Shown here: piece after piece, positions 12,606 to 37,565 of the stretch
Numbering within the stretch: position 1 is the first letter of the stretch
How the letters are laid out: each line of letters starts with the position of its first letter
Source: a virus
DNA: 59,284 nt
IMG/VR virus record: IMGVR_UViG_3300037119_007415
Location: 1 to 59,284 of that record
Direction: 5' to 3' (one strand)
The notes under the pieces: model-generated
Told to the model about the DNA's origin: nothing
Seen by the model: only the letters and a program-made list of their open reading frames with translations
Database searches by the model: none
Program-made: the position numbers and the translations under genes

Positions 12606-13322
12606 TCACATGTGGTCGAAGTCGGGGGCGACCTCGTACAGGAACGACCACGACACGGCCACGAAGTTACCGACGGCGAGGTTGTTCGCCGCCGACGACG
12701 CGAGCCCAGCCGAGGCAAGCTGTGCCATCGACTCGACCGTCCCGCTGACACCGGCCACCCCGATCTGCCCGACGGTCTGGCCGATCCCGGTCGCGTTGGC
12801 GACTTCGAGGTCGAAGCGTGCGGGCACCGGCAACGCAATGAACAGCCGGTCACCCGGGAGTGCCGCCCCGGTCGTGAGGACAGCCCCGGCGTAGTGGACC
12901 GTGTGCGAGTCGATGAGCCGCGCCCGGCTCGTCCACAACGGATCCATCGGGACTGTCGTCGTCGCACCGGAGCTAAGCGTGGGGAGCACGTCCCGATATG
13001 GGGCGGCCTCAGCGACGGGCCATGCGAGAGCCCCGGACGGGGGCACGTACATCACGCCGACGTGCTGGCCGATCAACGGCGTGGCGACCATGCACTGCGC
13101 CCACGTCGTGCCCTGTTCGCCGGACACGCGTACCTCGACCTCCGGTGGGACACGGTCGAGCTTCAACGCCTCGACGAGCCCGGTGCGCCAGTACGTCCGC
13201 GGAGCCCCGGCGATGGCCTCGTCGTACGCGGCGGCGGCGATGGCTGCGAAGTGCGGACGCAACCGATCCATCAGGTCGACAGCGAACCGATCCAAGTCGG
13301 CCGACGTGAACTGCGTTGCCAT
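12606..13322 (-). CDS. putative minor tail or virion-associated protein, 238 aa
   Basis: ATG at 13322 overlaps the stop of the large tail protein (TGATG). The first 60 residues are helical (DLDRFAVDLMDRLRPHFAAIAAAAYDEA); the rest is beta-rich (LIGQHVGVMYVPPSGALAW...ALPGDRLFIALPVPARF). No catalytic motif is seen. Position directly after the tail hydrolase suggests a tail-tip component. Confidence 0.5.
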   Translation of the reverse strand: MATQFTSADLDRFAVDLMDRLRPHFAAIAAAAYDEAIAGAPRTYWRTGLVEALKLDRVPPEVEVRVSGEQGTTWAQCMVATPLIGQHVGVMYVPPSGALAWPVAEAAPYRDVLPTLSSGATTTVPMDPLWTSRARLIDSHTVHYAGAVLTTGAALPGDRLFIALPVPARFDLEVANATGIGQTVGQIGVAGVSGTVESMAQLASAGLASSAANNLAVGNFVAVSWSFLYEVAPDFDHM

Positions 13323-16300
13323 CAGCTTTGCGTGGTCGACATCGAGCGGCTGTTCTCGATCAGCGACGCCGTGTTGACGACCTCGAAGTCGGTGCCGTGC
13401 AACGTGCGCAGCGTGTTGATGTCCGACCAGTTCCACGACGACTCCGGTCCTTGCCCGCAGAGCTTCCAGTTCGGGCCGATGTCGATCACGATTGCCCCGT
13501 ATTTCTTCAACGCGGTGGCGATGATCTTCGCCGCCGGGGCCAGGCCGTTGATGTTGACCGAGGACTTCAACCGCAGCCACGTGCCCATCTTCATCAGGTC
13601 CGAGCGGACGCCCATCGTCATGTCGGCAACGTGGTTTGCCGGCCACTCGTACTCGGCCGAGCAGTAGTCGACGGTGATCCGCGCCGCGTGCGTGATGACC
13701 CCGGCTTGGATCTCGGCGACGCGAATGATGCCGGGAGCGATGGGCATCCCGGCAGCGTCGGCTGACGTGATGCCAGGCGGGCGCATGGCGTTGGTGCGCA
13801 GATCCCACCGTGATGCTTGGCCGACGGCCCAGCCCTGCCCCGAGGGATCCGCATCCCAGAACTCATACAGCCAGTTGGGCGGCTGCACGACGATGCGGTG
13901 CTTGTCGCTGTTGGCCTCCGCCATCGCCGTGAGCGGCACCGGGTACGGCCCGGCGTCCGACTCCTGCTGCGAGTACGAGTACTTCCACACGACGATCGGA
14001 TACGCCTGTTGATTCGACGGTGCGACTTCGAGCGGCATGATCGGGTCGAGCGTCACGTCGTTCGTGTACCCGTAGCCCGAGAACTTCCCGTTGTTCGCCA
14101 TCGTCCCGTTGATCCGCGCCGTGCTGTCACCACGGACTGCCAGGCCACTGACGTCGGTGTAGAAGACGTTGTCGGCGGGGAACAACTGCACGCCGCCGAT
14201 GACCGTCGCTCCTCCCGTTGTCGGCGGCGGTGTCGTCGTCCCACCTCCGCCGCCCGACACGGTCGCGGTGACCTCGATCTCGTCGACGAGCAGGTTTCCG
14301 TACTCGCCGGTCGTCGTCAGCACCACGTGGTTCGTGCCGACGACGAGCGGGATCTTCGCCGTCGGCGTGAAGTTCTGCCACGCCCCCGAGTACGCGCCCG
14401 ACGTCGGCGGGAACGGGCCGACGGTTCCACGTGAAACATTATTGACGGCCAGATCTTTCGAGAAGCCGAACGTCTCGGGGTTCACGTACCGGACCCGAAG
14501 GTTGTAGTCGCCCGCTCCGCCCGCGGGGATCGTCACCGTGAAGTCGAGCTTGTCGCCGGGATGCCAGTCGTTGTGGATGAACCCGGACCCGACGTAGCCC
14601 GGCAGGTACGTGGCCGTCGCCGGGACCGATGTGGGGTCGGCAGCCGTGAGTGACGCCGCCTCGGCCTGCACGGTCACGGCCACGTTCGTCGGTGTCGTCC
14701 CGCCTCCGGTGTTCCCGCCGCCCGAGCCCGTCTCCAGCGTGAAGCCGACGAAGTCCAAGTCGACGCCCATCGACGCGCCCGCGGGGCACGTGAGGACCAG
14801 CGTGTTCGCTCCCGCGAGCAACGACACCGAGTACGCGAACGTGTCGCCCCAGGCGTCGTCGGTCCACACGCCCGCCGTCTTCGGGAACGACAACGCCGGG
14901 GTCTTCGCCGTGCCGTTGACCGACCATGTGCGGGAGCTCGCCGTCGACGCGTTGCCGTTGCGGTAGTGGAAGCGCAGCGTGTAGAGCCCCGCGGCTGCGG
15001 CGGTGAGCGTCAGGTTCAGCGCCTCCGGTGATTGATACCAGCGGGCCGCGTAGCCCGTGCCCGAGAACGTGCCGAGGGCAGGCGGGTTCGACGCGGCGGT
15101 GGCGAAGTACGCGCCGTCAGTCGCGGGTGCCGTCCATGATCCCGACTCGGCTTGCACGATCGTCTCGGCGCCGGTCGTCGGCGGACCTGTGCCCGTCCCG
15201 CCCGACGGCGGCGGTGTCGTGCCTCCTCCGCCCGACGCGAGTTGGAACACCTGCATCCTGTCGATGTCGGCGACCTGTCCGGCCTGGCCCGTGTCGACCT
15301 TCACCATGATCGAGTGCGTGCCCGCGGTGAGCGTGACGTCGAACGGCACCTCGGTCCATGCGTTGTCGATGTCGGTCGACGCGTTGACCGGGATCGAGAT
15401 GTTCCCGGCCTTCACGCCGTCGACGTACACGCTGCGCGGCGCGAGGCTCGGCCCCTTGTTCGCACACCGGAACTTCAACCGATGCGCGCCGCTGATGGCG
15501 ATGGCAACGTTCGGCCACGTCAACGCTTCGTCGACTGCATCCCAGCCGCCGACGTACGCGGTGGAGGAGAACCCCGGCCGGTTCGTCTTCACGTCGAACG
15601 TCGTGGTCGGCGTGCCCCCGGTCCCGCCGCCCGCCGTGTAGTTCTCGATGTTGATCTCGTCGACGTCGGGCCCGCCCCCGGCGACGTACATCAAGTCGAT
15701 GTTCCGCGCGCCCGCGGTGAGCGTGACGTTCTGGATCACTAGCTCGGTCCACGTGTTCGCTTCCCAGCCCGACGCGTTGGGTGGGATGGCGAACGGCGAG
15801 CCGACGTTGACGCCGTCGACGCGTAGCTGCCGAGTGGTCGACGCCGCCGAGGCGTCCTGCCGGTAGCGGATCTTGATGTTGTAGGCGCGGGTCGTGGGGA
15901 TCACCGTCGCGAAGCGAATGCCCTCGCCTGCCGTGAACCACGCGCCGATGTAGCCGGTCCCTCGTGCGCCGGTCGCGGTGTTGAAGAACTTGGCGATGTT
16001 GACGGCACCGAGGAGTGACGCATTCTCGGCGTGGTACGTCGGGAAGGCATCGGCGACCGTCGGCGGCGGCGTCACGGTCCCGCCTCCTGACCACATCGAC
16101 GGGATCGACACGCCCGACGTCGTGCCCCCGGCGACCGTCTCGTCACGAGGACAGCCGAGGCCGTCGGGCCCTGCGCCGAAGACGAACGTCATCGGCCGGT
16201 GCGCGCCGTTGCCCAACGGGTTCGCCACCGCCGTCGTGCCCCAACGCTGCGCAGCCGCGGGCGTGCCAGGCAACGGCCCACCGACGCACGTGTAGAACCG

Positions 16301-16732
16301 GATCGGCATCGTGTTCCCGGCCGGTCTCGAGTTGCCCGAGTCGACGGGGTCGTCACAGATGTAGCCCTTCACGCGGCCGCCGTCGGTGTACCCCGACGCG
16401 CACAGTCGTTGTGCGCCGCCTCCTCCGTAGCTGAACCCGTGAATGATCATCGAGTCGATGACGATCCCGAACAACGATTCGAGGGCTGCACGCGCGGCGG
16501 AGATGTACGCGGGTAACGACGCGGCGCCGTCGTCCCATCGGCTGTTTCCCGGCAGGCCCGAGATCGTGCCGATGGTCCCGGTCGGCGTGCGGTATTGCAC
16601 GAGCGTCCCGTAGTCGTAGCCGCCGATCGTGTAGAAGTCCGGTCCCATTGGCTGGTCGCCGTTCGATCCGAACCCTTGCTGGATCGAGCCGTTGCCCCCG
16701 GCTCCGTGCATCCCGAACACTGCGCGTGCCAT
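13322..16732 (-). CDS. tail adsorption protein: esterase-like domain, carbohydrate-binding modules, C-terminal GH-like domain
   Basis: The 1136-residue protein is modular. Residues 1-215 resemble an alpha/beta hydrolase or depolymerase with nucleophile motif GFSYGGG. Residues about 225-830 hold four beta-sandwich modules like CBM6/35 (starts TYHAENASLLGAVN, TTTFDVKTNRPGF, ETIVQAESGSW, VTVQAEAASLT), separated by TPPP-type linkers. The last 290 residues include WKYSYSQQESDAGPYPVP and ALKKYGAIVIDIGPNWKL, matching a glycoside-hydrolase-like domain found in actinobacterial envelope proteins. It probably binds and trims host surface polysaccharide. A parS-like sequence lies inside its fourth module. 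Confidence 0.75.
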   Translation of the reverse strand: MARAVFGMHGAGGNGSIQQGFGSNGDQPMGPDFYTIGGYDYGTLVQYRTPTGTIGTISGLPGNSRWDDGAASLPAYISAARAALESLFGIVIDSMIIHGFSYGGGGAQRLCASGYTDGGRVKGYICDDPVDSGNSRPAGNTMPIRFYTCVGGPLPGTPAAAQRWGTTAVANPLGNGAHRPMTFVFGAGPDGLGCPRDETVAGGTTSGVSIPSMWSGGGTVTPPPTVADAFPTYHAENASLLGAVNIAKFFNTATGARGTGYIGAWFTAGEGIRFATVIPTTRAYNIKIRYRQDASAASTTRQLRVDGVNVGSPFAIPPNASGWEANTWTELVIQNVTLTAGARNIDLMYVAGGGPDVDEINIENYTAGGGTGGTPTTTFDVKTNRPGFSSTAYVGGWDAVDEALTWPNVAIAISGAHRLKFRCANKGPSLAPRSVYVDGVKAGNISIPVNASTDIDNAWTEVPFDVTLTAGTHSIMVKVDTGQAGQVADIDRMQVFQLASGGGGTTPPPSGGTGTGPPTTGAETIVQAESGSWTAPATDGAYFATAASNPPALGTFSGTGYAARWYQSPEALNLTLTAAAAGLYTLRFHYRNGNASTASSRTWSVNGTAKTPALSFPKTAGVWTDDAWGDTFAYSVSLLAGANTLVLTCPAGASMGVDLDFVGFTLETGSGGGNTGGGTTPTNVAVTVQAEAASLTAADPTSVPATATYLPGYVGSGFIHNDWHPGDKLDFTVTIPAGGAGDYNLRVRYVNPETFGFSKDLAVNNVSRGTVGPFPPTSGAYSGAWQNFTPTAKIPLVVGTNHVVLTTTGEYGNLLVDEIEVTATVSGGGGGTTTPPPTTGGATVIGGVQLFPADNVFYTDVSGLAVRGDSTARINGTMANNGKFSGYGYTNDVTLDPIMPLEVAPSNQQAYPIVVWKYSYSQQESDAGPYPVPLTAMAEANSDKHRIVVQPPNWLYEFWDADPSGQGWAVGQASRWDLRTNAMRPPGITSADAAGMPIAPGIIRVAEIQAGVITHAARITVDYCSAEYEWPANHVADMTMGVRSDLMKMGTWLRLKSSVNINGLAPAAKIIATALKKYGAIVIDIGPNWKLCGQGPESSWNWSDINTLRTLHGTDFEVVNTASLIENSRSMSTTQS
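14423..14438. promoter_or_regulatory. parS-like centromere sequence inside the tail gene
   Basis: GGTTCCACGTGAAACA reads TGTTTCACGTGGAACC on the coding strand. This differs at one terminal base from the actinobacterial parS form TGTTTCACGTGGAACA as I know it. It is encoded by AAT AAT GTT TCA CGT GGA ACC, codons unusual for this GC-rich phage, which suggests selection on the DNA. It could bind host ParB. Confidence 0.65.
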
Positions 16733-16887: not shown

Positions 16888-19251
16888 TCAGTAGCTCTTG
16901 GAAAGCGAGCGGACGTTCCACAGGTGTTCGCCCATCTCGGACCGTGGGACGGAGTACGCGAGGTAGCCGCCTGGCGGGTTGCGCATGGAGAACCCCGACG
17001 TCGTGTTTGTGTCCGACGTGCCGATCCACACGATGACCGACTCGCCCTTCACGGCGAACCAGTCGTCGATGTTCTGCAACGTCAGCGCCCGTTGGATGGC
17101 GTTGCCCGCGGGGCCGGTGAGGCCGCAGCACGCCGAGACGCCGTCATAGATGTAGCCCGTCTCCTCGACCATGAACGGCACGTTCCCGGCACGCAACGTC
17201 GCGCGTGACGCCTCGGCCGCGGCGGCATTCTGCGCGCCGTAGGTGTGGATCCCCAGCGAGACGCGGGTCTTGCCCGACTTGTACGAGTTCCACTCGGCGA
17301 CGGTCAACGGCTGCTGCGCGAAGTTGTACGTCGACACCGACAGCCACACGTTCGCCCCGTTGGTGTAACCGCGGATTGCCGAGTAGAGCCCGTCGTTCAA
17401 CGTCTTCCACGCAGCGAAGTTGGCGTCCTCGCGGTTCTCGCCGTTGGGGTTGAGCCACAAGTACGGCAACGCCGACGCTGGTGTCGCGGCGAGCAGCTGT
17501 TGAAAGAACGGGAGGATCACGGTCGAGAACGGGGCCGTCGACGCGTTGGGTGTGTTGCTCGCCGTGGGGGCTTGCGACTCCAAGCAGTAGACGAGCGTGA
17601 TGATCTTCTGCGCCGCGTTGGCGACGACGAGGTCGCGTGTCGCGTTGACGTTCGTTGTCATGCCGCCCGCACCGGAGGGGAGCACGACACAGCGGACGAT
17701 GTTCCATCCCCAGTTCTTGATGTCGTTGGTCTTGTTCGTGAACGTCTCCCGGCCGCCGCCGTCAGCCGCGGGTACCGGCATGTTGAAGATGAACGGCCCG
17801 CCGCCGAGGACGTCGACCGATCCGTTCGCCCCGAGCATCCTCGTGCGCACACCGTCGGGCGACACGAACCGGCCCGCGGCGTCGGACTCCCACCAGCCCG
17901 AGCCCGACGACGGAGGCGTCACCGTCGCCGTCGTCAACGTGGCGACCTCGGCCTCGTACGAAGCGACGAGCGTCTCGGTCCCCGCGGGCGGCGGCGTCAC
18001 CGGCCCGCCAGGATCAACGGGCGGTGACGTCGGCACGCCCGGCTGTGTCCCGATCACACCGCCAGGTGCGCGGACCTCGCTGTGCCGGATCCGCTTTCCC
18101 TTGTGAGCCATCGGTCCTCCCGGTCCGAGCGTCATCGTCCACTCGGTTTCTAGGTAGTCGCCATCGAGCACCCGCATCACGTCGTATGTGTCGTGGCGTG
18201 GGTCGATCGTCGACGTGAAAGAGATCTCCTCGTAAGCCCGGTCCTGCCGTGCCATGTTCAACGCGACGGCCTCGGCGTCCGCTTGTGATGCGAGCCCTTG
18301 GACCTCGACGTACTTCGTCAGATACCAGCCGCGCCGTGCCCGCGAGTTTGGCGCGTCCTCGGGCACGAGGTACTCGGCAAGCACCGTTGCCGGCTTCACC
18401 GATGTGTCCAACACGATGTAGCGGTTCGGTGCGTTGAGCAGGTCGTTCGACACGACGACCGAGTCGCGGATGATGCGGCCCGTCACCGGGTCGTCGTCGT
18501 ACACATACGACGGGATCACCGCTCCGAGGTCGCCAGGCGCGCGCAAGATCGGGACGCCGCCGCGGTTGAAGTACGGGTCGAAGAACTGCGCGTGCTTCAT
18601 GGCGAGTTCGGCGAGCACCTTGTAGTACGTGTTCTGCGACGAGCCCGGCCATGCGACCGGTGCGGCAAACGACGCTGACGTGTTCTCGATCTGCGCGTGA
18701 GGGAACCCGGCCCATACACAGACTTGGAACATGGCGTCGTACACCGATGATCCCGACTCGAACGAGATCCCTTCGGCGATGGGCTGGCCCCAGATCAAGC
18801 CCTGATCGTGGAGCGTGCCTTCGTGGTCGTTGCCGCGTGCGTGTCGCAGCGTCGACGCGTCGGCCCATAGGAACACGCCGAGGGGCTCGGGCGTCGACCC
18901 GTCGCCTGGCACGTACATCGGACGGATCCGCATCGACACGGGGTCGATGTCGGCGGCCTCGGTCTGCGTCAGATGGAAGTTCGACATGCGTCGCTTCACC
19001 GCACCGGGCGGACGGTTCGTGATCTGCACACGATCGGATCGTGTCGGGTGGACCTCGCCGATGAGCCCGAGCCCCGAGTCGAGGACGTCGAATCGGAACG
19101 TGTGCGAGAGCGAGAACGTGAGCGGGAAGTACGACGTCCGCGGTGCGCCGACAGGGATCTCCGGTGTCGACGACGGAGGCGGCGTCGTGAACTCGTCCCA
19201 GTCGACACCGACGGTGTCCCATGAAGGGTTCGTTGCATCCCAGTCCGGCAT
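16888..19251 (-). CDS. baseplate/minor tail protein fused to a cellulase-like (GH5-type) domain
   Basis: The 787-residue protein joins two parts. Residues 1-410 resemble siphophage baseplate-hub or Gp37-like minor tail proteins (RFDVLDSGLGLIGEVHPTRSDRVQI, YYKVLAELAMKHAQFFDPYF, LDGDYLETEWTMTLG). After a Pro/Gly linker at about 410-430, residues 470-787 look like a TIM-barrel glycosidase: TNDIKNWGWNIVRCVVLP, LWLNPNGENRED (probable acid region), LGIHTYGAQN and VEETGYIYDG (probable nucleophile strand). The enzyme would sit on the tail tip and cut surface polysaccharide. The exact glycosidase family is uncertain. Confidence 0.72.
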   Translation of the reverse strand: MPDWDATNPSWDTVGVDWDEFTTPPPSSTPEIPVGAPRTSYFPLTFSLSHTFRFDVLDSGLGLIGEVHPTRSDRVQITNRPPGAVKRRMSNFHLTQTEAADIDPVSMRIRPMYVPGDGSTPEPLGVFLWADASTLRHARGNDHEGTLHDQGLIWGQPIAEGISFESGSSVYDAMFQVCVWAGFPHAQIENTSASFAAPVAWPGSSQNTYYKVLAELAMKHAQFFDPYFNRGGVPILRAPGDLGAVIPSYVYDDDPVTGRIIRDSVVVSNDLLNAPNRYIVLDTSVKPATVLAEYLVPEDAPNSRARRGWYLTKYVEVQGLASQADAEAVALNMARQDRAYEEISFTSTIDPRHDTYDVMRVLDGDYLETEWTMTLGPGGPMAHKGKRIRHSEVRAPGGVIGTQPGVPTSPPVDPGGPVTPPPAGTETLVASYEAEVATLTTATVTPPSSGSGWWESDAAGRFVSPDGVRTRMLGANGSVDVLGGGPFIFNMPVPAADGGGRETFTNKTNDIKNWGWNIVRCVVLPSGAGGMTTNVNATRDLVVANAAQKIITLVYCLESQAPTASNTPNASTAPFSTVILPFFQQLLAATPASALPYLWLNPNGENREDANFAAWKTLNDGLYSAIRGYTNGANVWLSVSTYNFAQQPLTVAEWNSYKSGKTRVSLGIHTYGAQNAAAAEASRATLRAGNVPFMVEETGYIYDGVSACCGLTGPAGNAIQRALTLQNIDDWFAVKGESVIVWIGTSDTNTTSGFSMRNPPGGYLAYSVPRSEMGEHLWNVRSLSKSY

Positions 19252-19970
19252 CAGTAGGCCACCACGAAGTTGTCCCAGTCATGGTCGTGCGTCGCTGCTG
19301 CGTTGCCGCCTTGGCTGATGATGGCAATCTGTCCGGTCGTGTACGTCGACGATGTCGTGTCGAGCAGGTTCCATGTGCCGGGCTCGGCCGCGCCGTCGAG
19401 CCAGTAGCGGACCTTGAACGTGGTGCCGCGACAGTCGATCTTCACGTGCAAGATCGTGGCACCAGTGATTGACAGGCCGCCGATCCCGCCGAGCGACGTC
19501 TGCGTGAACCCGGCACGCGTGCCCGCCGAGAGGTACACGTTGCCGCCTGCGTCGATGCCGTACTCGAAGTAGTCGTCGTTGCCCGACGAGTCGGCCCGCC
19601 AGATCAGCCGGGCGAACTGTTCGCCCGTCGTCGCGTTGAGTTCGATGTCCGCGGAGATCGTGAAGTTCTGTGACGCCGGGGTGAACCCGTAGATCACTTG
19701 GTCGCCGTAGCCGCCGATCGTCCCGAGGTGATAGCGAAGCTGGTTCGACTGGATCGTCCCGGTCGATCCCGACGTGGTGAAGATGTTGGTCAACGGCGAC
19801 GGCGGAGCGGCGCCGTTGGTGCCCGTGAAGTTCAGCGAGATCCCGTTCGTCGTGACGAGCGTGCCCTTCGCCGACGTCGACAACGCAGCCTTCCCGGCGA
19901 GGGCTTGTGTCCCACCGGACGTGGCCTGCTTGCGCGCGACGGTCGCAGCGACAGCGATGGCCGTGCTCAT
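19251..19970 (-). CDS. tail protein with concanavalin A/laminin G-like fold
   Basis: ATG at 19970 overlaps the upstream stop. The N-terminus carries one copy (QALAGKAALSTSAKG) of the 20-residue repeat found about 27 times in the 1473-residue protein at 28715-33136. The rest of the 239 residues is a beta-sandwich of lectin type (NFTISADIELNATTGEQFARLIWRAD, TFKVRYWLDGAAEPGTW, HDHDWDNFVV). A glycan-binding tail part is likely. Confidence 0.65.
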   Translation of the reverse strand: MSTAIAVAATVARKQATSGGTQALAGKAALSTSAKGTLVTTNGISLNFTGTNGAAPPSPLTNIFTTSGSTGTIQSNQLRYHLGTIGGYGDQVIYGFTPASQNFTISADIELNATTGEQFARLIWRADSSGNDDYFEYGIDAGGNVYLSAGTRAGFTQTSLGGIGGLSITGATILHVKIDCRGTTFKVRYWLDGAAEPGTWNLLDTTSSTYTTGQIAIISQGGNAAATHDHDWDNFVVAY

Positions 19971-20428
19971 GCGAGGTCGCCCCACGCCCACCATTCGTCG
20001 GTGCCCCGTTTCTTCAACGTGGCGACGCTGTATTGCGCACGCAACGCGAGGAGGGAACCGGCCGAGCGGATCGTGACACCTGCGCCGGCAACGAGCGTTG
20101 CCGTCCCGGTGCCGTAGCGGCCGACGACGAGGATCGAGTTGACCGGGAACCCGACCGTCGCGTTGGGTGGGACGGTGAATGTCGTGGCCGAAGCGGAGGA
20201 CATCTCGGTCATCGTGTTGACGTCGCCGAGAGCGGCGACGTAGCTCGCTGTCTTCGTCGACGTGCCCAACACTTCGAGGGCGGCGAGGCGTCCGCCGGGG
20301 TCGTTCCCTAGCTCGGTGACGATCGACAGGAAGGCGTCACGCATCGCCACGTACCACGTCCGCAACGTCTCGGGGCTGAGGCTGTTCGGATCCGATGGGA
20401 AGGCGTTTTGCTCGGCCGGGTACGCCAT
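19967..20428 (-). CDS. putative minor tail protein, 153 aa
   Basis: ATG at 20428 lies directly after the stop of the large minor tail protein; its own stop overlaps the next start. The N-terminal third is helical (SLSPETLRTWYVAMRDAFLSIVTELGN), the rest resembles beta-rich tail-fibre collar segments (TFTVPPNATVGFPVNSILVVGRYGTG). No catalytic motif. Confidence 0.55.
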   Translation of the reverse strand: MAYPAEQNAFPSDPNSLSPETLRTWYVAMRDAFLSIVTELGNDPGGRLAALEVLGTSTKTASYVAALGDVNTMTEMSSASATTFTVPPNATVGFPVNSILVVGRYGTGTATLVAGAGVTIRSAGSLLALRAQYSVATLKKRGTDEWWAWGDLA

Positions 20429-26644: not shown

Positions 26645-27616
26645 CTAGAGCAACAGACTGATGGCCTCGGAGCTTCGCCACGCGGCCTTCCCGTCGAGCA
26701 CCGGGTAGATCTCCGCCGCGCACGTGCGCAGCCGTCCCCACGTGTCGGCCGTGGCCGACTCGACGATCGTCGACACGAGACGATCGGCGTCGCCGACCTG
26801 CGGGCCGGGGATGCACTCCCAAAAGCGCAGCCCGTGGTGGACATGCTCGCGCCAGTACGGCGGCTGCAACATCACGACGGGACGGTCGAGGGCGGCGAAC
26901 TCGTAGGCGACCGACGTGTTGTCGGCGACGAGCACGTGCGCACGGTCGAGGACGTCATCGGTGTCCCACCATTCGTAGCCGTTGCGCGTGCACCAGCCGC
27001 CGACTTCCTTGCGTGCCCGTGGATGGCACGTGACGACGGGACGCATCCCCGAGTGGACGAGCCTGCGTGCCGTCATCTGTAGGTCGGGCATGAAGTGTTG
27101 AAACGCCGACTGCAACTCGGGGATCGGTTCGCGGTGCGCCTTCCATGCGAAAGCGACGACGCCACGCTCGACCTCGTCGTGCATCCCGACGGCGAACATG
27201 TCGAGCCGTGCGCAACCGACGACGATGGCCAGGGCCTTCGGGTGCCGGTTCTGTCGACGTGCCGCTACGAAACGGTTGGGGCACAAGAAGAGTCGGGCGT
27301 TGCGGATCCTCCCGGTGGAGAACGAGTCGTGCTCGTACGTGCGGGCGTCGCCGTCGTACGTCTGGCCCGAGCCCCGCTCGACGAACACAACGGACTTCGG
27401 ATACACGGTCGCCGCGTCGGTCGCCGATGCGACGAGCCACACGTCGACGTCAGCCGACGGTGCCGTCTTCACGTCGATGCGGTACTCGGCGAAGCTCGCC
27501 GTCTTGTGGGGCGACACGATCGGGCACTCGATCCCTCGGGAACGAAGCTGCTCGACGATCGGGTACAGCGTCTCGAATGAATCACGGAGCGTTGCGAGGC
27601 AGGCAAGTTTGCGCAT
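26645..27616 (-). CDS. glycosyltransferase / CDP-glycerol glycerophosphotransferase-like protein
   Basis: The 323-residue product has a GT-B-like layout. The C-terminal half holds VLVADNTSVAYEFAALDRPVVML, matching the LITDYSSV.FDFA.L.KP signature of TagB/TagF-type glycerophosphotransferases and related transferases. No membrane anchor is seen. Glycosyltransferases embedded among virion genes are known in some actinophages to decorate capsid or tail proteins, so that role is plausible. Envelope modification is the alternative. It begins with ATG six bases after TAACGT, as if transcribed on its own and leaderless. Confidence 0.7.
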   Translation of the reverse strand: MRKLACLATLRDSFETLYPIVEQLRSRGIECPIVSPHKTASFAEYRIDVKTAPSADVDVWLVASATDAATVYPKSVVFVERGSGQTYDGDARTYEHDSFSTGRIRNARLFLCPNRFVAARRQNRHPKALAIVVGCARLDMFAVGMHDEVERGVVAFAWKAHREPIPELQSAFQHFMPDLQMTARRLVHSGMRPVVTCHPRARKEVGGWCTRNGYEWWDTDDVLDRAHVLVADNTSVAYEFAALDRPVVMLQPPYWREHVHHGLRFWECIPGPQVGDADRLVSTIVESATADTWGRLRTCAAEIYPVLDGKAAWRSSEAISLLL

Positions 27617-27639: not shown

Positions 27640-28395
27640 TCACGGCGTTGTGCCCGCTCCACGCAACCGCTGCGCGGCTTTCATCGGGTCGACGACGAAC
27701 GTCCGCGACACCTCGCCGTACTCGATCGACGAGATGAGCATGTCGATCTCGGGGATGCCGGTGCGGTGCTTCTCGAATATCGCATTCCAGTCGAACATCT
27801 GCATCGACACGCCGTTGCGCGTGATGGCCTGCACGGTCTTCGGCAGGCGGCACTCGCCGCAACGTGCGACCGACCACGCCAACGCGAACTCCCAGCCGAG
27901 CAACGTCGACGCGAGCTTCGCCGCTTGCGGTGCTTCCTCGCCCCACGTGTACGCGACGACACACGACGGAGGCTCGACGGTCGTGCCGAGACTGACGACG
28001 GGCCACGACGACCCGTCGAGCCGTACGACGTAGCGGCTATTCCGTAGCACGTACGTCGACGCGTCGAGCACGTCGTCGTTGATCTTCACCTCGTCGACGC
28101 TGCGCGCGTATCGCGCCGGGAGACGCAGCACGTTGCCCTGCCCCAGCGACGCGTTGACGACAGCGCCCGACGCGAGGACCGGCACCGGACGGCACCACGT
28201 CTCGTAGTCGCCGATCGTCCACATCGGCCGGTACGTGTCGTGGCATTCGCCGTGCCAACGTCGACGGAACAGGTTGAACAACACGGCGCCGCTGTAGCGC
28301 AGCGCCGAGTCGAGGACGTCGAGGTCGATCTCGGTCAGGTCGTACGACGACGGCAGATCGTCACGCGTCGACCATGGGGTGCATGGCTCGATCAA
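27640..28395 (-). CDS. head-to-tail connector/adaptor protein
   Basis: The 251-residue product (MIEPCTPWSTRDDLPSSYDL...) resembles actinophage head-tail adaptors. It has helical N-terminal residues, a beta-rich middle (VRLDGSSWPVVSLGTTVEPPSCVVAYTWG), a Cys pair (CGECRLPKTV) and a C-terminal FEKHRTGIPEIDMLIS segment. It overlaps the next upstream gene by four bases. Function is inferred from family resemblance and position. Confidence 0.65.
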   Translation of the reverse strand: MIEPCTPWSTRDDLPSSYDLTEIDLDVLDSALRYSGAVLFNLFRRRWHGECHDTYRPMWTIGDYETWCRPVPVLASGAVVNASLGQGNVLRLPARYARSVDEVKINDDVLDASTYVLRNSRYVVRLDGSSWPVVSLGTTVEPPSCVVAYTWGEEAPQAAKLASTLLGWEFALAWSVARCGECRLPKTVQAITRNGVSMQMFDWNAIFEKHRTGIPEIDMLISSIEYGEVSRTFVVDPMKAAQRLRGAGTTP

Positions 28396-28718
28396 TCGAC
28401 TGCCCTCCGCTCGACGATCACCTGTAGCTCGTCCACCGCGTTGATCCCATCAGGCAGGGCGGACACGCCGACCCATGCGTAGATCCAGCGGCCGACGACG
28501 TCGGGCAGATGGGCGTACTCGAACACGCCCGGCCCGGTGTGCGCCATGTCGCCGTCGGTCGACGGGATCGTGATGTTGCCCCCGGCGTTGGGCGGAGGGT
28601 TGATCCGCAACTCGACCGTCGTGGGATCACCCGGCACGTTGGTCGGTGCACTCTTGAAAGCCGAGGTCACCACGATCCGCGTGCCCTGCTTGATGTGCTC
28701 GACGCCGTCGCTGCTCAC
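28392..28718 (-). CDS. small neck or connector protein, 108 aa
   Basis: GTG at 28718 overlaps the stop of the 1473-residue protein. The product is beta-rich (GTRIVVTSAFKSAPTN, TTVELRINPPPNAGG, YAHLPDVVGRWIYAWVG) with an Ig-like look. It is coupled to the connector gene and probably part of the neck. No specific family named. Confidence 0.55.
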   Translation of the reverse strand: MSSDGVEHIKQGTRIVVTSAFKSAPTNVPGDPTTVELRINPPPNAGGNITIPSTDGDMAHTGPGVFEYAHLPDVVGRWIYAWVGVSALPDGINAVDELQVIVERRAVD

Positions 28719-31700
28719 GGGGCCGAGGCTAGTTCGTTCACCGGGGTGGCCTCGATGACGATCGAGTCGGCCATGATCTGCGTCCCCGCCGCGTCGGCTG
28801 CGACCGACATGCCGGCACCGTCTGTTGCCACGGTGAACGTCGTGGAGTCCGCGGCGATGGCCATGTTCGCCGAGTCGGCCGTGATCGTGATCGTGACCCA
28901 CCACGACTCGCCGGTTTCGTGTACGACCTCGAGTACGTCGCCACGGGCCCCGAACGTGATCGGCGCGCGGCCGGTGAGGAGGACCGACGTCGTCAGCGTC
29001 TGGCCGCGGGCGTGGAAGCTCAGCGCGGCGCGGCCCGCCAGGACCAGGTCCCCGGTGTTGATCAGGCCACGGGCCGACACGACGAACGGGGCACGGGCGG
29101 CGAGGCCGCGGGTGATCGACGCCGCGGCTTCGGCGTCGACGACGATCGACGCCCGCCCGCCGAGGCTCACCGATCGACCGAGCGTGGCCTTCGCCGAGGT
29201 CGCCAACGGGACCTTCGCTTGCACCGCGAACGTGCGCAGCAACACGGCCCGCGCCGAGCTCGACGTGGCGGCGCGTCCGGCGAGACGCACCGCGAGCGAC
29301 ACCGAGGCTTTCGAGTTCACGGCGAGGCGGTGTCGTCCGGCGAGATCGACCTGCCCTTGCGTCGCCAGGTTGATGGCCTTGGCTCGCACGGCGAGGGGGT
29401 GACGGCCCGACAGGGCATACGCGGCCCGTGCGGATCCCTTCGCCGACACGACGACGGCGTGTTTTCCCGTCAGACCCGCTGAGAGACGCTGTGTGCCCTT
29501 CGCCGCGTACGACGTGGGGAATCGGCCGTCGAGCAGGCGCGTGGCCTGTAGGGCCGTTTTTGCGGACACGACAAGCGGGGCCCGTCCCGCCAGGCCGATC
29601 GACAACAGGACGGTCCCACGGGAGGACGTCGCCACGGGATGCTTCCCGGCGAGGACGACACCGCGGGACAGGGCCGAGGCCTTCGCCGACACGACGACCG
29701 GGAACCGCCCGGCCATCGGGATCACGATCGACACCTGTCCGGCCCGGGCGTTGATCACCGCCGCGGCGCGGCCGTCGAGCGGGATCAGCCGACCGAGTCC
29801 AGCCTTCGCCGACGTCGAGATCGGGTGACGCCCGGCTAGCAGCAGCGCGAGAGCGAGCGATGCCTTCGTGTTCGTGACGACCGGCGCGCGACCTGCCAGG
29901 CCTCGCGTCGTTGCGAGGGCTGTCGCTTTCGCATTGGTGGCCGTGGCCGCGCGGCCATCCAGCGGACGTGCCAGGCCGACCGAGGCCTTGGCACTCGAAG
30001 CGGTAGATGCTCGCCCATCAATCCTCCGTGTCGCCGACGCCGTGGCCTTCGCTGACGTCACCACCGGGTGCCGGCCGTTGAGAGCCCATGCCATCGACGT
30101 CGAGCCTTTCGCCGACGTGGCGAGGGGATGCTTCCCGGCGAGGCCGCGCAACGCGTCGAGCTTCGTGGACTTCGCCGATACCGCGACCGGGGACTTGCCG
30201 TTGAGCGTGACGATCCCGCCGAGGAGCCCTCGCGCCGATGTCGCCACGGGATGCTTCGCGCCGAGTCCTCGTGTGATCACGAGCGTCGCCTTCGCCGAGG
30301 TCGCCAACGCGTGTTTCCCGCCGACGCCTCGGGTCGCGTAGATCGTGCCCTTCGCCGACGTCGACGACGGGGCCTTCCCGACCAACGCCCACAACAGACG
30401 GAGCGAACCTTTCGCCGACGTCGCCGTCGGGTGCTTCCCGGCGAGAGCTTGCGCGGCCCCGGCGATGGCGACCTCGACGGCGACTGCGGTGTTGCCGTTC
30501 GCCGCGAGCCCCGACCATGTCGTCGTCTGTGCCGCCGAGAGCGGGTCGTACGCGGTTTTGCCGTCACCGGCTCCGCCGCCCGCGGCGTACGCGTCGACGA
30601 GGTTGAACCCGGACGGGAGTGTTGGCACACCGAACACCGAGAACGAGTCCGAGTAGACCCATGACGTCGCCGCGGGGGCAACGCCGAGTGACACGCCGAG
30701 GGTCGTGCCGGTCCCGGTGTTCTGCGCCTGTTGCACGACGATGGCCGGGCCGGTCACTTCCTCGAACGACGCCCACAGCGAACGGTCCGCGGATCCGCCC
30801 GGTGTCTCGGTCACGGTGATCTGACCCGCGGACGCGCCCGTGCCGACACGTCGCCAGGCGATGGCGCAGCCGACCCCGTACGAGAACACGTCGAGCGTCG
30901 ACTTCTGCACGGTCCACGCGGTGCCTCCGGTGTCACCGAAGTTGTCCGACGCCGTCCACGCAATCGCGGTGCCCGCTCCCGCGCATACACCTCCCATCAT
31001 CACGAGGAGCAACGAGCCCGCCGCGGGCGTGAAGCTCGCCGACGTCTCGACGTTGTCGGTCGTCGTCGCTTGTGTCTGGTACGTCGTGCCCCGGTCGACA
31101 CGGGCAATCGTTCCGCCGCCCCCGGCCGTGACGGTCAGGGCTGCTTTCGCCGAGGTCGCCAGGCCGTGCTTCCCACCGAGGGGCCGCGCCACGCTGATCG
31201 TGTTGGCTTTCGCCGACGTCGCCGTCGGGGCCTTCCCGGCGAGGGCTTGCGGCCCGCCGCTTGCACCGAGGTACTTCGTGTTGAGGTACGCGTAGACCTG
31301 TGCCCGTTCGCCCGACGTCAACGCCCGGTTGTAGATGACGAGGGCGCCGAGCGTGATCGGGCCGTAGACGGTGTTCTGCGCGCGGGCGAGACGCAGCACA
31401 CCGGTGAGGCCGCCTGTGTTCCCTGATGTCGACGTCGCCGGGGTGCCGTTGTTGATCGTCAACGACAGGTTCCCGCCCGTGTGCAACTGGTCGGCGATGT
31501 AGGCCGTGTTCGCCGCAATCGTGCGCGTCGCCGTCGTGATGGCGGTGTCCCAGTTGTACGCAATGGCCAGCGTGCTCGACGCCCGGAAGTGCAGGCCGCT
31601 GAAGGCGAGGGAGTCGCCCCACACCGTCGCGTTGTTGTACGCGGCGCCGTCGTCGGTCGGGAACGATGCGACCTTGAACACGGCGAAGATCTCGGCGTCG

Positions 31701-33136
31701 GCCGCGGTGATCAACGCCGACATGGCGGTGGCCGACTCCATGAAGTCATTGGTCCCGTCGAACACGACACCGGCCGCGCCGGTCGGGAACTGCGCGGCGG
31801 TGATGGCCGGGCGTGCTGTTGCGTCGGGCGTCTGTGTCACGGTGACGGCACCGAACTTTGACGCCCACGCCGACACCGGGGATCCCGTGACACCCGAGTC
31901 TGCTTCGAGCCACACTTTGAGTCCCGACACCGGGACGGCTGCGTTGAAGTTGTCGACCTGTACGTTCTGGCCTGCGGTGCCGTTGAACGTCGAGACCTGC
32001 GCGTACATCGGCGACGTCGACGTGAGCCACGCCGGGGTCGCGTTGCTCCACAGGTTCGCCCACGTGATGCCGTCTTGTGATCCGTCCCAGTAGACGGTCC
32101 CGGCTGTCTCTCGGATCCGTAGCCACGGAGGAGATCCGGCCGTTGCGTACGACCCCGACGCGCTGGTCGGTGTCGTCGCCGTGATCGACTGCGCCAGGAT
32201 CGTGTCGCCCGCTTTCGCGAACTCCAAGTAGTTGTTGTTGTCGAGCACGAGGTAGATGTGGAACTCGCCCGTCGCGTCGGCAGGCCACGACGTCACTTTG
32301 AGATAGACGGCCGACTCTTTGAGCGTGTACGCCGTCGCCGACAACACGCCGACGGCGGATCCGACGACCGACGGGATGATCAGCACGTCGTTCTGTGTGA
32401 CGGCGCCGACGACACCGCCCGCCCACTTCGCGGTGTCGATCGTCGTCCCGGTGAAGTCGTCGGCTAGCGCGGCCTCGAACTTCGCTTGCGTGACCGGCAC
32501 GAACGGCGGGATCACGAACGTCAGCGCGCGCCAGTTCGCCGACGTGTTCGTGAACGTGCCGGGGTTCTCCGTCGTCGCCGCCGACAACGCTTTCGTCGCT
32601 ACACCAAGGAACACCGACGACGTCGACGACGCCGACTCGGTGAGCGTGACCGTCGTGTAACCGGCCGGTGACGCCGTGAGCGTGTTCGCCGCCGTTAGCT
32701 GGTCGATGCACACCGCGGCGATGGCAAGCCAATCCTTCGCCGACCCCACGGTGATCGACGGCGGGTCTGCGTTGCCGGACCCGGTCGCAGCGGTTTGCTT
32801 GAAGATGTCGGTCGCGACGTTGACGACGCCGTGCTGCGCCGCGGGGATCCGGCCCATGATGAGCACGATGTCCTGCGCGACGCCGCCGTAGGTGACCGTC
32901 TCGTTCGCGGCGGTGGCGATGCGGGCGAAGACGTCGAGTCGGCCGGTGCCCGTCGAGATGGTGCCGCCGTCGATGAGCGTGTAACCCGTGGGTGTCGTCG
33001 GTGCCGTTGTCGTGTCCGACGAGGCGATGATCAGCAGCAGGTCGCCGATGGCGATACCCGCGGGTTCGTTGACGTTGAGCGAGGCACCCGTCGTTGCCGC
33101 GCTGACGGTGCCCCACGTGACGGTAGGGGCCGTCAT
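28715..33136 (-). CDS. giant repeat-containing virion protein (fibre-like), 1473 aa
   Basis: Residues 1-215 form a beta-rich N-terminal domain (TPTGYTLIDGGTISTGTGRL), followed by a lectin-like sandwich. Next is a laminin G-like module (GLKVWLEADSGVTGSPVSAW...GVVFDGTNDFMES), two 20-residue repeats, and a further beta domain. About 25 tandem copies of a 20-residue repeat (pattern LaGkhPvatSAKaxLxxxr) follow. The C-terminal 50 residues have a second short repeat (ADSanMaIAADS). It is probably a long fibre or decoration on the neck or tail. No enzymatic motif is seen. It is encoded between tail-tube and neck genes, an unusual place for a fibre. Confidence 0.65.
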   Translation of the reverse strand: MTAPTVTWGTVSAATTGASLNVNEPAGIAIGDLLLIIASSDTTTAPTTPTGYTLIDGGTISTGTGRLDVFARIATAANETVTYGGVAQDIVLIMGRIPAAQHGVVNVATDIFKQTAATGSGNADPPSITVGSAKDWLAIAAVCIDQLTAANTLTASPAGYTTVTLTESASSTSSVFLGVATKALSAATTENPGTFTNTSANWRALTFVIPPFVPVTQAKFEAALADDFTGTTIDTAKWAGGVVGAVTQNDVLIIPSVVGSAVGVLSATAYTLKESAVYLKVTSWPADATGEFHIYLVLDNNNYLEFAKAGDTILAQSITATTPTSASGSYATAGSPPWLRIRETAGTVYWDGSQDGITWANLWSNATPAWLTSTSPMYAQVSTFNGTAGQNVQVDNFNAAVPVSGLKVWLEADSGVTGSPVSAWASKFGAVTVTQTPDATARPAITAAQFPTGAAGVVFDGTNDFMESATAMSALITAADAEIFAVFKVASFPTDDGAAYNNATVWGDSLAFSGLHFRASSTLAIAYNWDTAITTATRTIAANTAYIADQLHTGGNLSLTINNGTPATSTSGNTGGLTGVLRLARAQNTVYGPITLGALVIYNRALTSGERAQVYAYLNTKYLGASGGPQALAGKAPTATSAKANTISVARPLGGKHGLATSAKAALTVTAGGGGTIARVDRGTTYQTQATTTDNVETSASFTPAAGSLLLVMMGGVCAGAGTAIAWTASDNFGDTGGTAWTVQKSTLDVFSYGVGCAIAWRRVGTGASAGQITVTETPGGSADRSLWASFEEVTGPAIVVQQAQNTGTGTTLGVSLGVAPAATSWVYSDSFSVFGVPTLPSGFNLVDAYAAGGGAGDGKTAYDPLSAAQTTTWSGLAANGNTAVAVEVAIAGAAQALAGKHPTATSAKGSLRLLWALVGKAPSSTSAKGTIYATRGVGGKHALATSAKATLVITRGLGAKHPVATSARGLLGGIVTLNGKSPVAVSAKSTKLDALRGLAGKHPLATSAKGSTSMAWALNGRHPVVTSAKATASATRRIDGRASTASSAKASVGLARPLDGRAATATNAKATALATTRGLAGRAPVVTNTKASLALALLLAGRHPISTSAKAGLGRLIPLDGRAAAVINARAGQVSIVIPMAGRFPVVVSAKASALSRGVVLAGKHPVATSSRGTVLLSIGLAGRAPLVVSAKTALQATRLLDGRFPTSYAAKGTQRLSAGLTGKHAVVVSAKGSARAAYALSGRHPLAVRAKAINLATQGQVDLAGRHRLAVNSKASVSLAVRLAGRAATSSSARAVLLRTFAVQAKVPLATSAKATLGRSVSLGGRASIVVDAEAAASITRGLAARAPFVVSARGLINTGDLVLAGRAALSFHARGQTLTTSVLLTGRAPITFGARGDVLEVVHETGESWWVTITITADSANMAIAADSTTFTVATDGAGMSVAADAAGTQIMADSIVIEATPVNELASAP
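28935..30457 (-). repeat. array of ~25 tandem 60-bp repeats encoding 20-residue units
   Basis: Within the giant protein, units such as ALAGKHPTATSAKGSLRLLW recur about 25 times at a 20-residue period. The G-[KR] and SAK core is best conserved and turn positions vary. Two further copies lie near 31150-31260 and one in the gene at 19251-19970. DNA copies have diverged, so the array is old. Confidence 0.85.
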
Positions 33137-33157: not shown

Positions 33158-33592
33158 TCAGTACGTGTCGCCTGGGTCACCGGCTTGGAAGATCAACGCT
33201 CCCGCGGCGAACGACGCGGTGTCGTTCGCGCCGATGGCTTTCGAGGTCGTCAACGCACCGAAGCCGATGTAGTCCGCGGTTGTCACACCGGAGATCGTCG
33301 CGCACAGCAGGAAGTGAGTGACCGTGCCCCATGAGCCGGTCGCCATCGGGAACGTCTTTACCGCCGAGTTGTCCTTCACCGCGGGTGTCGTCGCCGACGC
33401 CGCATTCCAGTCGGCAGCGACCGTTGACACCCGGGCGTACGCGTTGCCCGATGGTTCGGTGACCGAGCCCGCGGCTTCGGTCGGGGTCGTCGTCGACAGG
33501 CCGAGGTACAGCGTCGTGGCCGGTGTCCACGTCGGGTCGGTGAAGATGTGGTCGAGGATCTTCTGCTCGAACAGGTCGAAGAAACCGGGCAT
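33158..33592 (-). CDS. tail-associated protein of a common phage family, 144 aa
   Basis: The product contains LYLGLSTTTPTEAAGSVTEPSGNAYARV, a pattern seen in many phage tail-fibre or receptor-binding accessory proteins. A beta-sandwich follows (WGTVTHFLLCATISGVTTADYIGFGAL). It sits directly upstream of the giant repeat protein and may be its attachment or capping partner. Function is not established. Confidence 0.6.
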   Translation of the reverse strand: MPGFFDLFEQKILDHIFTDPTWTPATTLYLGLSTTTPTEAAGSVTEPSGNAYARVSTVAADWNAASATTPAVKDNSAVKTFPMATGSWGTVTHFLLCATISGVTTADYIGFGALTTSKAIGANDTASFAAGALIFQAGDPGDTY

Positions 33593-34193: not shown

Positions 34194-34859
34194 TTACGTT
34201 TGGACCGGGACCGTGACGTACGTCGTCCCGACTACGGGCAACGTCATCGCTGTGGGCAGATACAGGTACGCGGCGTTGCTCGGTGTCGCCACGGGCCAGT
34301 CGTTGAACGGGCCGTTCCCCCAGGCGGGGTTGTCGATGGCTGTGATCTGGAACGACGGCTGGATCTCGGACGCACCGAACGTGCCGGGCGTGTTCATGCG
34401 GAACTTCGTCACTCGTGGGAACACGTGCCAGCCGTACGGCCGCGCCGCGTGCGGCGCACCGGAGGCGTCAACGCGTCGTGTCCACATCTCGATCGACACA
34501 TGGAACGTGTAGTTCTGCGGACCGATCGGCGGGGCCGCCCACCCGATGGCTGCGGTGTCGGTGAGGATGGCGCCGGTCCCGAGGAACTCCATGACGTACG
34601 GGTCAGGCGTACACCACGTGATGTCGGCGGTGACGTTGTCGAACGAGTCCGGCGCGTCGTAGCGGACGCACGTGACGCCCGCGGCATTCGTCGCGCGTGT
34701 CTGCTCGCCGTCGGTGTAGTTGAGCGTCGGGTTCAATTCGACCAGGGCGTCGGACACGTACGCGTTGGATGCCCCCGGCAGGGCAGCCCCGGTGATCGGG
34801 TCGAGCCGCGCCAGGCGGGTACGGAGGACGTGCAGTTGACCGACGGGCTCGTTCGCCAT
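34194..34859 (-). CDS. major tail tube protein (probable)
   Basis: The 221-residue beta-rich product starts MANEPVGQLHVLRTRLARLDP, as many actinophage tube proteins do. It contains VSDALVELNPTLNYTDGEQTRATNAAGVTCV and PAWGNGPFNDWP, and ends in a beta strand. Length and position upstream of chaperones and tape measure fit. No other gene is a better tube candidate, though the giant protein and neck genes intervene. Confidence 0.65.
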   Translation of the reverse strand: MANEPVGQLHVLRTRLARLDPITGAALPGASNAYVSDALVELNPTLNYTDGEQTRATNAAGVTCVRYDAPDSFDNVTADITWCTPDPYVMEFLGTGAILTDTAAIGWAAPPIGPQNYTFHVSIEMWTRRVDASGAPHAARPYGWHVFPRVTKFRMNTPGTFGASEIQPSFQITAIDNPAWGNGPFNDWPVATPSNAAYLYLPTAMTLPVVGTTYVTVPVQT

Positions 34860-35786: not shown

Positions 35787-37565
35787 CTACACCGGGGCCG
35801 TGCAAGTGACCGAGGCCGTCGCGGCGACCATCTGGCCGGTCATACACATCGGCGTGTCGTACACGTACGACTCGCCGGGGACCCCGAAGTAGTGGACGTT
35901 CTCGAACGACTCCTCGAACATCATCATGTCGTTGGTGCCGACGAGTGCCGAGTCTCGGATCACGCCGACGTCGAGCGTGCCGCCGTCTAGGAACAGCCAG
36001 TTCCCTTCGGGGAACACGTAGAAGCGACCCCAGTACGGGAAGCCGTTGACAACGCCGGGTGCCTGCGTCCCGAACGGCGGTGCGCCACCGGCTGTCGTGG
36101 TCTGGCCGAACTGGTAGTCACGGGACCAGGACACGTTCACGCCAAGGTTCGCAAACGCTGCGTCGATGAAAGCCGACGCGTCGGCCCGGAGCCGCTCTTC
36201 GAGACGGTCGCCCGTGCCGGTGCGGATCAGGTCGTTGATCATCGCCTGGCGGACCCACTCGAACCCGATGACGCGGATGCGCAGATCACCGTCGGCGATG
36301 CGGTGCCGGTAGCGCATGCCCTCGACGAGAGCGGACAGGGTCGTGAACGTGTCCTTCACGGCACCGAGGAGTGCCGGGCCGGTCACGAGCTTCGAGCCTG
36401 CGGCGATACCGGCGAGGAGCTTCGACTCGGCGTAGCGCGCGTGGTACACGTCGGCGAGACGCATGTACGCCTGTAGCTGCTCGGGGTACCAACGGTCGCG
36501 GAAGTTCCCGATCTTGAAGGCCCGGGTGATGGCGTAGACCTTCGTGGTCGTGTCGACCTCGTTGCAAGCGATGGTCATGAACGGCTTGGTCGCCGGGGCC
36601 GTCGGGTTGATGTCGTTGGCCTCGGTCCAGGTACCGAAGGCTGACGTCACGTCGCCGATCGTCGGCGGGTTGAAGGTCCGCACGCCGCCGCGCACCGCAG
36701 CGAATCGGTTGAGGGCGTCACGCACCGGACGTGCTCCGTCGCCCACGGTCGGCAGGTCGTAGCGGTACGGGACGGGTGCGCAGATGCCGCCCGCCGCGGT
36801 GATGGCCTCGACCGACTGCGAGTCGATGTAGGCGCGGCGTCGATCGAGCTTCTGCTGGTTCGCGTACACGTCGGAGTCGAGGATCAGATCCTCGGTCCCT
36901 TGCATGAGCCCGCGGGCGTCGGCGGTGAGCACCGGCATCGGCGTGTAGCCATCTTGGAACGGCTTGTCGAGCAGAGCGATGGCCGCGTCGAATGCCGCGA
37001 ACCGTTCCGACGGTGTGTCGATGCGTCGCCCGCCTTGGATCCCCGGCAGGTTCATCGCCGCGGTGAGAGCCGCTGTGCGCTGCGCAGACGGCCGCGGTGC
37101 ACGGGAGGAGGGGCGAGGAGCCGCGGCGGGCGCACGGCGCACGACAGCGGGCGTGGACGAAGCCACGACGACAGGCTCGGGCGTGTCCTCGTGTGCTTCG
37201 ACGACGGGCTCGACCTCGGCCTCGGGTGTCTCGTCCTCGTCGACGACAGGTTCGAGCTCTACGGGCTCCCCTTCGTCTTCGTCGGTGTCGTCCTCGCCGG
37301 GACGGAACTGGCGTGCAAGCTCGGCGGCTTCGGCACGACGGGAGTCGGCCGCGGCCTCGCGCCGTTCCGCCTCGACGTTGTACGCGGCTTGCATCTCGGA
37401 AAGCTCACGGAGCGTCGCGACTTCCTCGTCGGTGAGGTCGGCGGGATCTTCGTGCGAGTCGAGCAGGGCGTTGGCCTCGGCTTCGAGCAGGCCGTTGAAC
37501 TCGCCCAGTTCCTCGGCGGTGAGGTTTTCGAGCCCTTGCTGAAGAAGCTCACGCAAACGGTCCAT
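35787..37565 (-). CDS. scaffold-major capsid protein fusion (HK97-type)
   Basis: The 592-residue protein has a helical, acidic N-terminal part (residues 1-190; coiled-coil start MDRLRELLQQGLENLTAEELGE, then a Glu/Pro/Ala linker) like a delta or scaffold domain. A C-terminal HK97-type capsid domain follows (VRGGVRTFNPPTIGDVTSAF, IGNFRDRWYPEQLQAYMRLAD, FIDAAFANLGVNVSWSRDYQF, NWLFLDGGTLDVGVIRDS). The upstream protease would remove the N-terminal part during maturation. Residues RRRAYIDS also occur in the protease. Confidence 0.9.
   Translation of the reverse strand: MDRLRELLQQGLENLTAEELGEFNGLLEAEANALLDSHEDPADLTDEEVATLRELSEMQAAYNVEAERREAAADSRRAEAAELARQFRPGEDDTDEDEGEPVELEPVVDEDETPEAEVEPVVEAHEDTPEPVVVASSTPAVVRRAPAAAPRPSSRAPRPSAQRTAALTAAMNLPGIQGGRRIDTPSERFAAFDAAIALLDKPFQDGYTPMPVLTADARGLMQGTEDLILDSDVYANQQKLDRRRAYIDSQSVEAITAAGGICAPVPYRYDLPTVGDGARPVRDALNRFAAVRGGVRTFNPPTIGDVTSAFGTWTEANDINPTAPATKPFMTIACNEVDTTTKVYAITRAFKIGNFRDRWYPEQLQAYMRLADVYHARYAESKLLAGIAAGSKLVTGPALLGAVKDTFTTLSALVEGMRYRHRIADGDLRIRVIGFEWVRQAMINDLIRTGTGDRLEERLRADASAFIDAAFANLGVNVSWSRDYQFGQTTTAGGAPPFGTQAPGVVNGFPYWGRFYVFPEGNWLFLDGGTLDVGVIRDSALVGTNDMMMFEESFENVHYFGVPGESYVYDTPMCMTGQMVAATASVTCTAPV

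Follow-up and report, generated by a model that had tools for sequence, protein, structure and literature searches.

In phage GP4, the protein 8JOU_g is described as a fibril by which the tail nozzle collar is joined to an adhesin (PMC13243795). Pfam describes its Gp80 family (PF23140) as fibre I of Ralstonia phage GP4 (PDB 8JOU), from which we infer that the Pfam Gp80 protein and 8JOU_g are the same. Phage LSH1 carries a three-gene module (payload-fibril-Ig), read as an anchor, an 8JOU_g-related fibril and a payload, and the authors of that study asked why the predictable domain of the payload is in every case next to an extended beta-helical stretch that models poorly, mentioning a repetitive motif as one possibility for this stretch; no complex was predicted (PMC13243795).

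The locus described here resembles this "extra structural module" (gp34-gp36) of Alishewanella phages LSH1, Slicko01 and Slickus01 (PMC13243795), in that a large protein, here P0001, is encoded beside a GP4-fibril-related gene, and in that a candidate adhesin-like part adjoins a long region, which in the Alishewanella payloads was left unexplained. The neighbouring gene product is a member of PF23140 by score, whereas P0001 itself is not. There are also differences: the folded domain of LSH1-type payloads is a lyase-like beta-helix, unlike in P0001, and the present phage encodes both a major tail protein and a tape measure, whereas GP4 is a podophage.

Gene neighbourhood and layout of P0001

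The window, the whole stretch of DNA that was analysed (59,284 nucleotides), comes from an IMG/VR virus record and shares 16,685 bases of identical sequence with a second record, from metagenome 3300037071. Genes on its minus strand run, 5' to 3', from terminase, portal, protease-type, major capsid, a phrog_779 protein and a relative of major tail proteins, through a short ORF, the Gp80-family gene, P0001, the head-tail adaptor and a glycerophosphotransferase-like gene, to connector-type genes, the tape measure and tail proteins. The features relevant here are as follows.

35787 to 37565, minus strand: major capsid protein (phrog_777, 5.8e-66)
33158 to 33592, minus strand: Gp80-family protein (PF23140, phage GP4 fibre I; E 1.2e-28, 100.5 bits, cut-off 27; phrog_240)
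28715 to 33136, minus strand: P0001, putative virion appendage or adhesin, 1473 residues (ORF call), between the Gp80-like gene and the head-tail adaptor
31244 to 33136, minus strand: N-terminal part of P0001, residues 1-631, apparently three domains (borders by eye)
31118 to 31243, minus strand: two extra repeat units, residues 632-673, between folded domains
30446 to 31108, minus strand: residues 677-897, domain separating the two-unit linker from the main array
28919 to 30445, minus strand: main array, residues 898-1406, 25 tandem units of about 20 residues, LaG[KR]xP..SA[KR][AG]
28718 to 28918, minus strand: C-terminal 67 residues past the array, a possible docking segment (from sequence only)
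27640 to 28395, minus strand: head-tail adaptor (phrog_783, 1.3e-33)
19842 to 19901, minus strand: lone repeat unit, LAGKAALSTSAKGTLVTTNG, near the N-terminus of a 247-residue protein (19251 to 19994, minus strand)

The Gp80-family gene lies directly upstream of P0001 on the same strand, with 21 bases between them. The capsid protein is closest to those of Gordonia and Mycobacterium phages (about 40% identity over half its length), and an actinobacterial host is therefore likely. Gene order would make P0001 the stalk, or payload, of an appendage linked through Gp80, and its position suggests that it is probably part of the virus particle, which is as far as the label "virion protein" in the original prediction can be taken.

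In the N-terminal part, the middle domain matches phrog_14065 (9e-21) and the third weakly matches phrog_10356, a virion structural protein (1.7e-5); PHROG matches across residues 1-897 are to unnamed or virion proteins. The description of these domains as lectin-like was not confirmed by sequence searches, in which residues 1-897 gave no Pfam profile and no PDB sequence match to Lectin/LamG (ConA-like) domains. Residues 677-897 gave no confident Pfam or PHROG family. Comparison with the N-termini of proteins from three other records (L087, L074 and L035) gave no support for a homologous N-terminal domain. The C-terminal 67 residues had no profile match above cut-off and only a faint, non-significant likeness to the L035 C-terminus; by eye, AD[ST] motifs recur in a short pattern in this segment (28718-28918).

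Several other genes in the window were noted. The Gp80-like protein (33158-33592, minus) matched PDB fungal PVL-type lectins by phmmer (5.8e-8), with no single stretch significant. The major tail protein relative (34194-34859, minus; phrog_792) follows shortly after the capsid gene and precedes the adaptor and connectors, an unusual order. A CDP-glycerol glycerophosphotransferase-like gene (26645-27616, minus; PF04464, 1.1e-6, above cut-off) lies within the structural block, and modification of virion proteins by its product is possible; in Gordonia phage Phendrix, a pair of glycosyltransferase genes lies between those for the head-to-tail adaptor and the major tail protein. A protein of 1136 residues (13322-16732, minus) has several CBM35/CBM6 carbohydrate-binding domains above the Pfam cut-off.

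A basic 20-residue repeat and looser repeats in the same register

The original prediction placed about 25 tandem units at 28935-30457 and counted 28 copies in the phage. The array was delimited here as 25 units at 28919-30445, and with the two copies between P0001 domains and the lone copy in the separate protein the total of 28 was confirmed, as was the modular nature of the unit. The period is 20 residues at far above chance: identity at lag 20 was 0.262, compared with 0.102 ± 0.013 in 1000 shuffles (maximum 0.147), and clear autocorrelation peaks were seen at lags 20/21 and 40/41 only. Most units of the main array have 20 residues, a few have 21 and one has 23. A pentapeptide repeat was not indicated, with a lag-5 identity of 0.087, under the shuffle mean. 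A PUA match inside the array was rejected (E 0.04, below cut-off).

The proposed G-[KR]-x-P and SAK core was borne out by the column consensus of the 28 units (L1 86%, G3 89%, K/R4 100%, P6 61%, S10 68%, A11 89%, K/R12 96%, A/G13 93%). The array is strongly basic (69 K/R and 11 D/E in 509 residues) because unit positions 4 and 12 are almost invariably Lys or Arg, in 28/28 and 27/28 units respectively, encoded by AAR as well as CGN codons. Tandem Repeats Finder detected no 60-nt array in the DNA, so the repeat exists at the protein level. Third-base agreement at codons shared between units was 44%, close to the 42% expected from codon usage; synonymous sites are thus saturated and the copies are old, and the retention of the amino-acid pattern under such saturation indicates that it is held by selection.

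As originally stated, the repeat has no named family, with no match in Pfam, PHROGs or NCBIfam. Against annotated phages, tblastn of whole P0001 found no match and tblastn of the array found two weak ones, neither of which was retained: that in Bordetella BMP-1 is out of frame with that phage's repeat ORF (judged from translations), and that in Microcystis Mel-JY03 falls in a Gly-rich 10/20-residue repeat without the register of the window, which weakly matches our repeat profile A3 but has no Gp80 gene nearby in that phage. Queries with a constructed LAG consensus and with the L083 and L087 proteins gave no match, low-complexity filtering possibly masking such repeats. A PDB sequence search with the repeat profile gave weak BamB matches only. 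A strict two-unit DNA signature (G-[KR]..P/A..S-A-[KR], twice) recovered the same phage only from IMG/VR and three matches from GTDB genomes, of which the two inspected both lay outside the matching gene frame. One weak match came from a search of 296 genomes from one bacterial phylum.

A looser DNA signature, Leu-x-Gly each 60 bases five times (LxG-20), recovered at least 120 stretches from IMG/VR. Many of these were pentapeptide and other known repeats, and a sizeable minority were long Ala/Ser/Thr/Gly-rich arrays, in genes lying among portal, protease, tape-measure or baseplate genes. One stretch in a viral contig (L052 6330-8377), has many 60-base units that read LCGSE...FLSC around variable middles, and here the repeat seems to lie in the DNA, with spacers and perhaps of CRISPR type, and not in a protein. 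In another (L103 1576-3360), the 20-residue array is N-terminal in a protein encoded among baseplate genes, which suggests that such repeats occur also in tail-hub-like proteins.

In several LxG-20 arrays, columns A11, G13 and L15 agree with the window units beyond the L1 and G3 anchors, with permutation p values, uncorrected for multiple tests, of 0.002 for L074 and L083 and 0.01-0.03 for L058, L014, L079, L087 and L129. We used these register tests in place of ranking by two repeat profiles (A1/A2, HMMER bias correction off), in which LAG arrays ranked high, yet some reversed sequences scored nearly as well and L074 reversed scored as high as L074 forward. Composition explains much of the profile similarity and is a serious confounder. 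The arrays in L083, L058, L087, L079, L014, L074 and L048 share the period and the L1/G3/A11/G13/L15 register of the window, and most have a Gp80 neighbour as it does; they are near neutral or acidic, with mostly Ala, Ser or Thr at positions 4 and 12 where the window has Lys or Arg. Judged by its register, the window array thus appears to be a basic version of a 20-residue phage repeat that is unnamed and loosely conserved. The original prediction is corrected here in that the repeat does not stand alone: the exact basic signature was found only in this phage, but a looser same-register form is widespread in phage structural regions.

Gp80-family genes beside period-20 genes

The association of the repeat with the Gp80 family, missed in the original prediction, emerged from gene order. 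The gene order of the window, from capsid through Gp80-like to array, recurs in L083 (capsid and Gp80 assigned by eye, Gp80 then confirmed with PF23140), and we therefore searched with PF23140 in two hand-picked sets of 20 records from one scan, the first carrying LxG-20 arrays and the second other repeats. Matches above cut-off were found in 12/20 LxG-20 records and 2/20 control records (p 0.002). In all 12 LxG-20 records the Gp80 gene was near the array, on the same strand and about 0.3-4.1 kb away, upstream in 11 and downstream in L021; no control had one near its repeat, the Gp80 gene in the two positive controls being more than 16 kb away. The window likewise has a PF23140 gene within about 5 kb and on the same strand, and a partner array of period 20 in the L1-G3-A11-G13-L15 register.

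In the reverse direction, we took 80 IMG/VR loci by Gp80 homology alone, 62 of which had at least 1.5 kb downstream. A period-20 gene on the same strand within 4.5 kb downstream was present in 30/62, a count from loci related to one another and biased upward rather than a family-wide rate, because all three Gp80 sequences in the query came from repeat-bearing loci. The period was exactly 20 in 29 of the 30 and 21 in one, with 25 distinct proteins at lag 20. Of the ORFs downstream of Gp80, 30/177 had a strong period of 20, compared with 4/387 of the remaining ORFs (p 1.7e-12); other periods were rare among ORFs of these loci. A profile of the downstream repeats, built without the window and anchored at L1 and G3 only, gave 47 bits on the window array and 14 on the reversed array; 3/300 column-permuted window arrays (L1 and G3 kept) scored at least as high as the window (p 0.01).

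Among isolated phages the signal was mixed. In five with Gp80, the neighbouring gene had a period of 20 in C72C1 (z 6.0), Lietuvens (4.6) and phiM5 (3.4) and of 22 in JC1 (6.6), with none in CRP-5, so that z 6 at lag 20 was reached only once. The record of phiM5 notes its Gp80 homologue as detected in particles. In Slicko01 (OQ508956), WGH49683.1 is encoded near a Gp80-like gene, and residues 640-1420 of the part read gave z 13.2 at lag 20 and 13.9 at lag 40, whereas the period is absent from the first 600 residues. The Slicko01 stretch has acidic and aromatic residues without the LAG/SAK core and does not match repeat profile A3, and its Gp80-like match is below the Pfam cut-off, whereas that of the window is above it; the two are alike in period and gene context, which is not proof of homology.

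These data bear on whether the loose 20-residue repeats elsewhere are convergent low-complexity arrays to which the window array is unrelated. The basic signature was found in the window phage only (strict signature, IMG/VR), and the register tests reach just p 0.002-0.03 (uncorrected) and 0.01, so that the evidence for common ancestry is modest. Against this, the L1/G3/A11/G13/L15 register is shared and so is the Gp80 neighbourhood, and we consider convergence unlikely, if a serious contender.

The position of the appendage on the particle is a further question, as Gp80-family proteins here may be head proteins rather than tail-fibre linkers, and P0001 a capsid decoration or head fibre. The order capsid, Gp80, P0001, head-tail adaptor is consistent with this, as are the label "head protein" of phrog_240, which the Gp80-like protein matches, and the arrays of L083, L048, L079 and L021, which have portal or protease genes close by. 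However, the GP4 fibril attaches at the tail nozzle collar (PMC13243795), the arrays in L087, L103 and L129 adjoin minor-tail or baseplate genes, and the major tail protein of the window shares the gene block. We regard a head fibre as rather unlikely.

Predicted fold of the array and a putative appendage

A beta-solenoid or stacked fibre was originally suggested as plausible, and the prediction made here leaves it a reasonable guess. The AlphaFold2 monomer model of eight window units with aligned relatives (13 rows) is all-beta and solenoid-like, with two strands per unit at about positions 7-11 and 14-21 or beyond; its pLDDT was 73 and pTM 0.60, with pLDDT ≤60 in three of five models. AlphaFold2 over-predicts beta-solenoids and invents them for perfect repeats (PMC11795689), and for this reason we also modelled a decoy, obtained by reading these arrays in the antisense frame, where the period is unchanged. 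The decoy (pLDDT 40, pTM 0.12) had no secondary structure, which argues against a pure period artefact, in a comparison of unequal alignments (13 and 9 rows, with differing gap content).

In structure searches with the model, VIA-align placed parallel beta-helices on top (Z 13-14, rmsd 2.5-3.4 for most), while Foldseek gave nothing below E 1e-3 in PDB and BFVD, where the top match among viruses was a phage protein without a name (TM 0.60). One BFVD match, A0A646QWD6 of Roseobacter phage CRP-5, has 274 residues, the length of CRP-5 gp55, whose gene (L227 2112-2936) comes directly after a Gp80 homologue. Natural beta-solenoids such as Curlin repeats (PF07012, CsgA) resemble the P0001 model in forming each repeat from two strands within about 20 residues. 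The CsgA fibril 8enq was among the structural matches, but a poor one (Z 9.5, rmsd 8.8), and the Curlin profile has no match in the window and differs in its core residues. The model and its structural matches agree with a beta-solenoid fold and the decoy was negative, results to be read with the bias of AlphaFold2 for repeats. Turns at unit positions 3-6 and 12-13 would leave basic positions 4 and 12 exposed, as judged from strand assignment rather than coordinates.

On balance we favour, with modest confidence, the reading that P0001 is a large part of a virion appendage with the Gp80-family protein as partner and the array as an all-beta stalk, likely a solenoid. The adjacent Gp80-family protein would be the small partner in direct contact with P0001 in one appendage, placed on head, neck or tail, in which P0001 serves as an adhesin-like stalk tied to a Gp80 linker. 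The 25 units, which probably form a rigid stalk, would make an extended beta-solenoid with one unit per turn, about 12 nm long at 0.48 nm per turn, holding the folded N-terminal domains at a distance from the attachment point. Positions 4 and 12, in the two turns of each unit in the model, could form two outward charge ladders able to bind cell-wall polyanions, which is speculative.

Alternatively, the array may be a flexible, Ala/Ser/Thr-rich basic spacer without stable fold, its period retained for elasticity, charge or sticking to the host surface. The low-complexity composition and the excess of basic residues (69 K/R, 11 D/E) fit this, a linker was considered for the analogous LSH1 region (PMC13243795), and AlphaFold2 solenoids of repeats may be false (PMC11795689). 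A spacer of this kind is quite unlikely in our judgement, given the 20-residue register retained despite saturated synonymous sites and the failure of a same-period decoy to fold. Viral fibres are often trimeric and the G-[KR]-x-P turn with alternating hydrophobics fits a triple beta-spiral in outline. The array matched no solved fibre by sequence, however, and an intertwined trimeric beta fibre (e.g. the triple beta-spiral of adenovirus fibre shafts) in place of a monomeric solenoid is improbable.

Beyond the favoured stalk reading, we tentatively raise the possibility that Gp80 linkers and 20-residue-repeat proteins constitute a widespread, undescribed class of two-gene appendages, of which the window is an extreme basic version. 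One repeat fold would then carry differing residues (neutral LAG, basic LAGK/SAK, acidic-aromatic in Slicko01), giving stalks tunable in length and charge, with the two Lys/Arg ladders gripping polyanions of the host surface.

Long repeat proteins of phage particles are usually left "hypothetical". Linking a class of them with a structurally solved linker family would give them a probable place and role and make their annotation possible. The Gp80-repeat link also offers a testable answer to the question raised for LSH1, why a predictable domain is always found beside a badly modelled stretch, and the role of the exposed stalk positions can be read from the basic variant as from a natural experiment.
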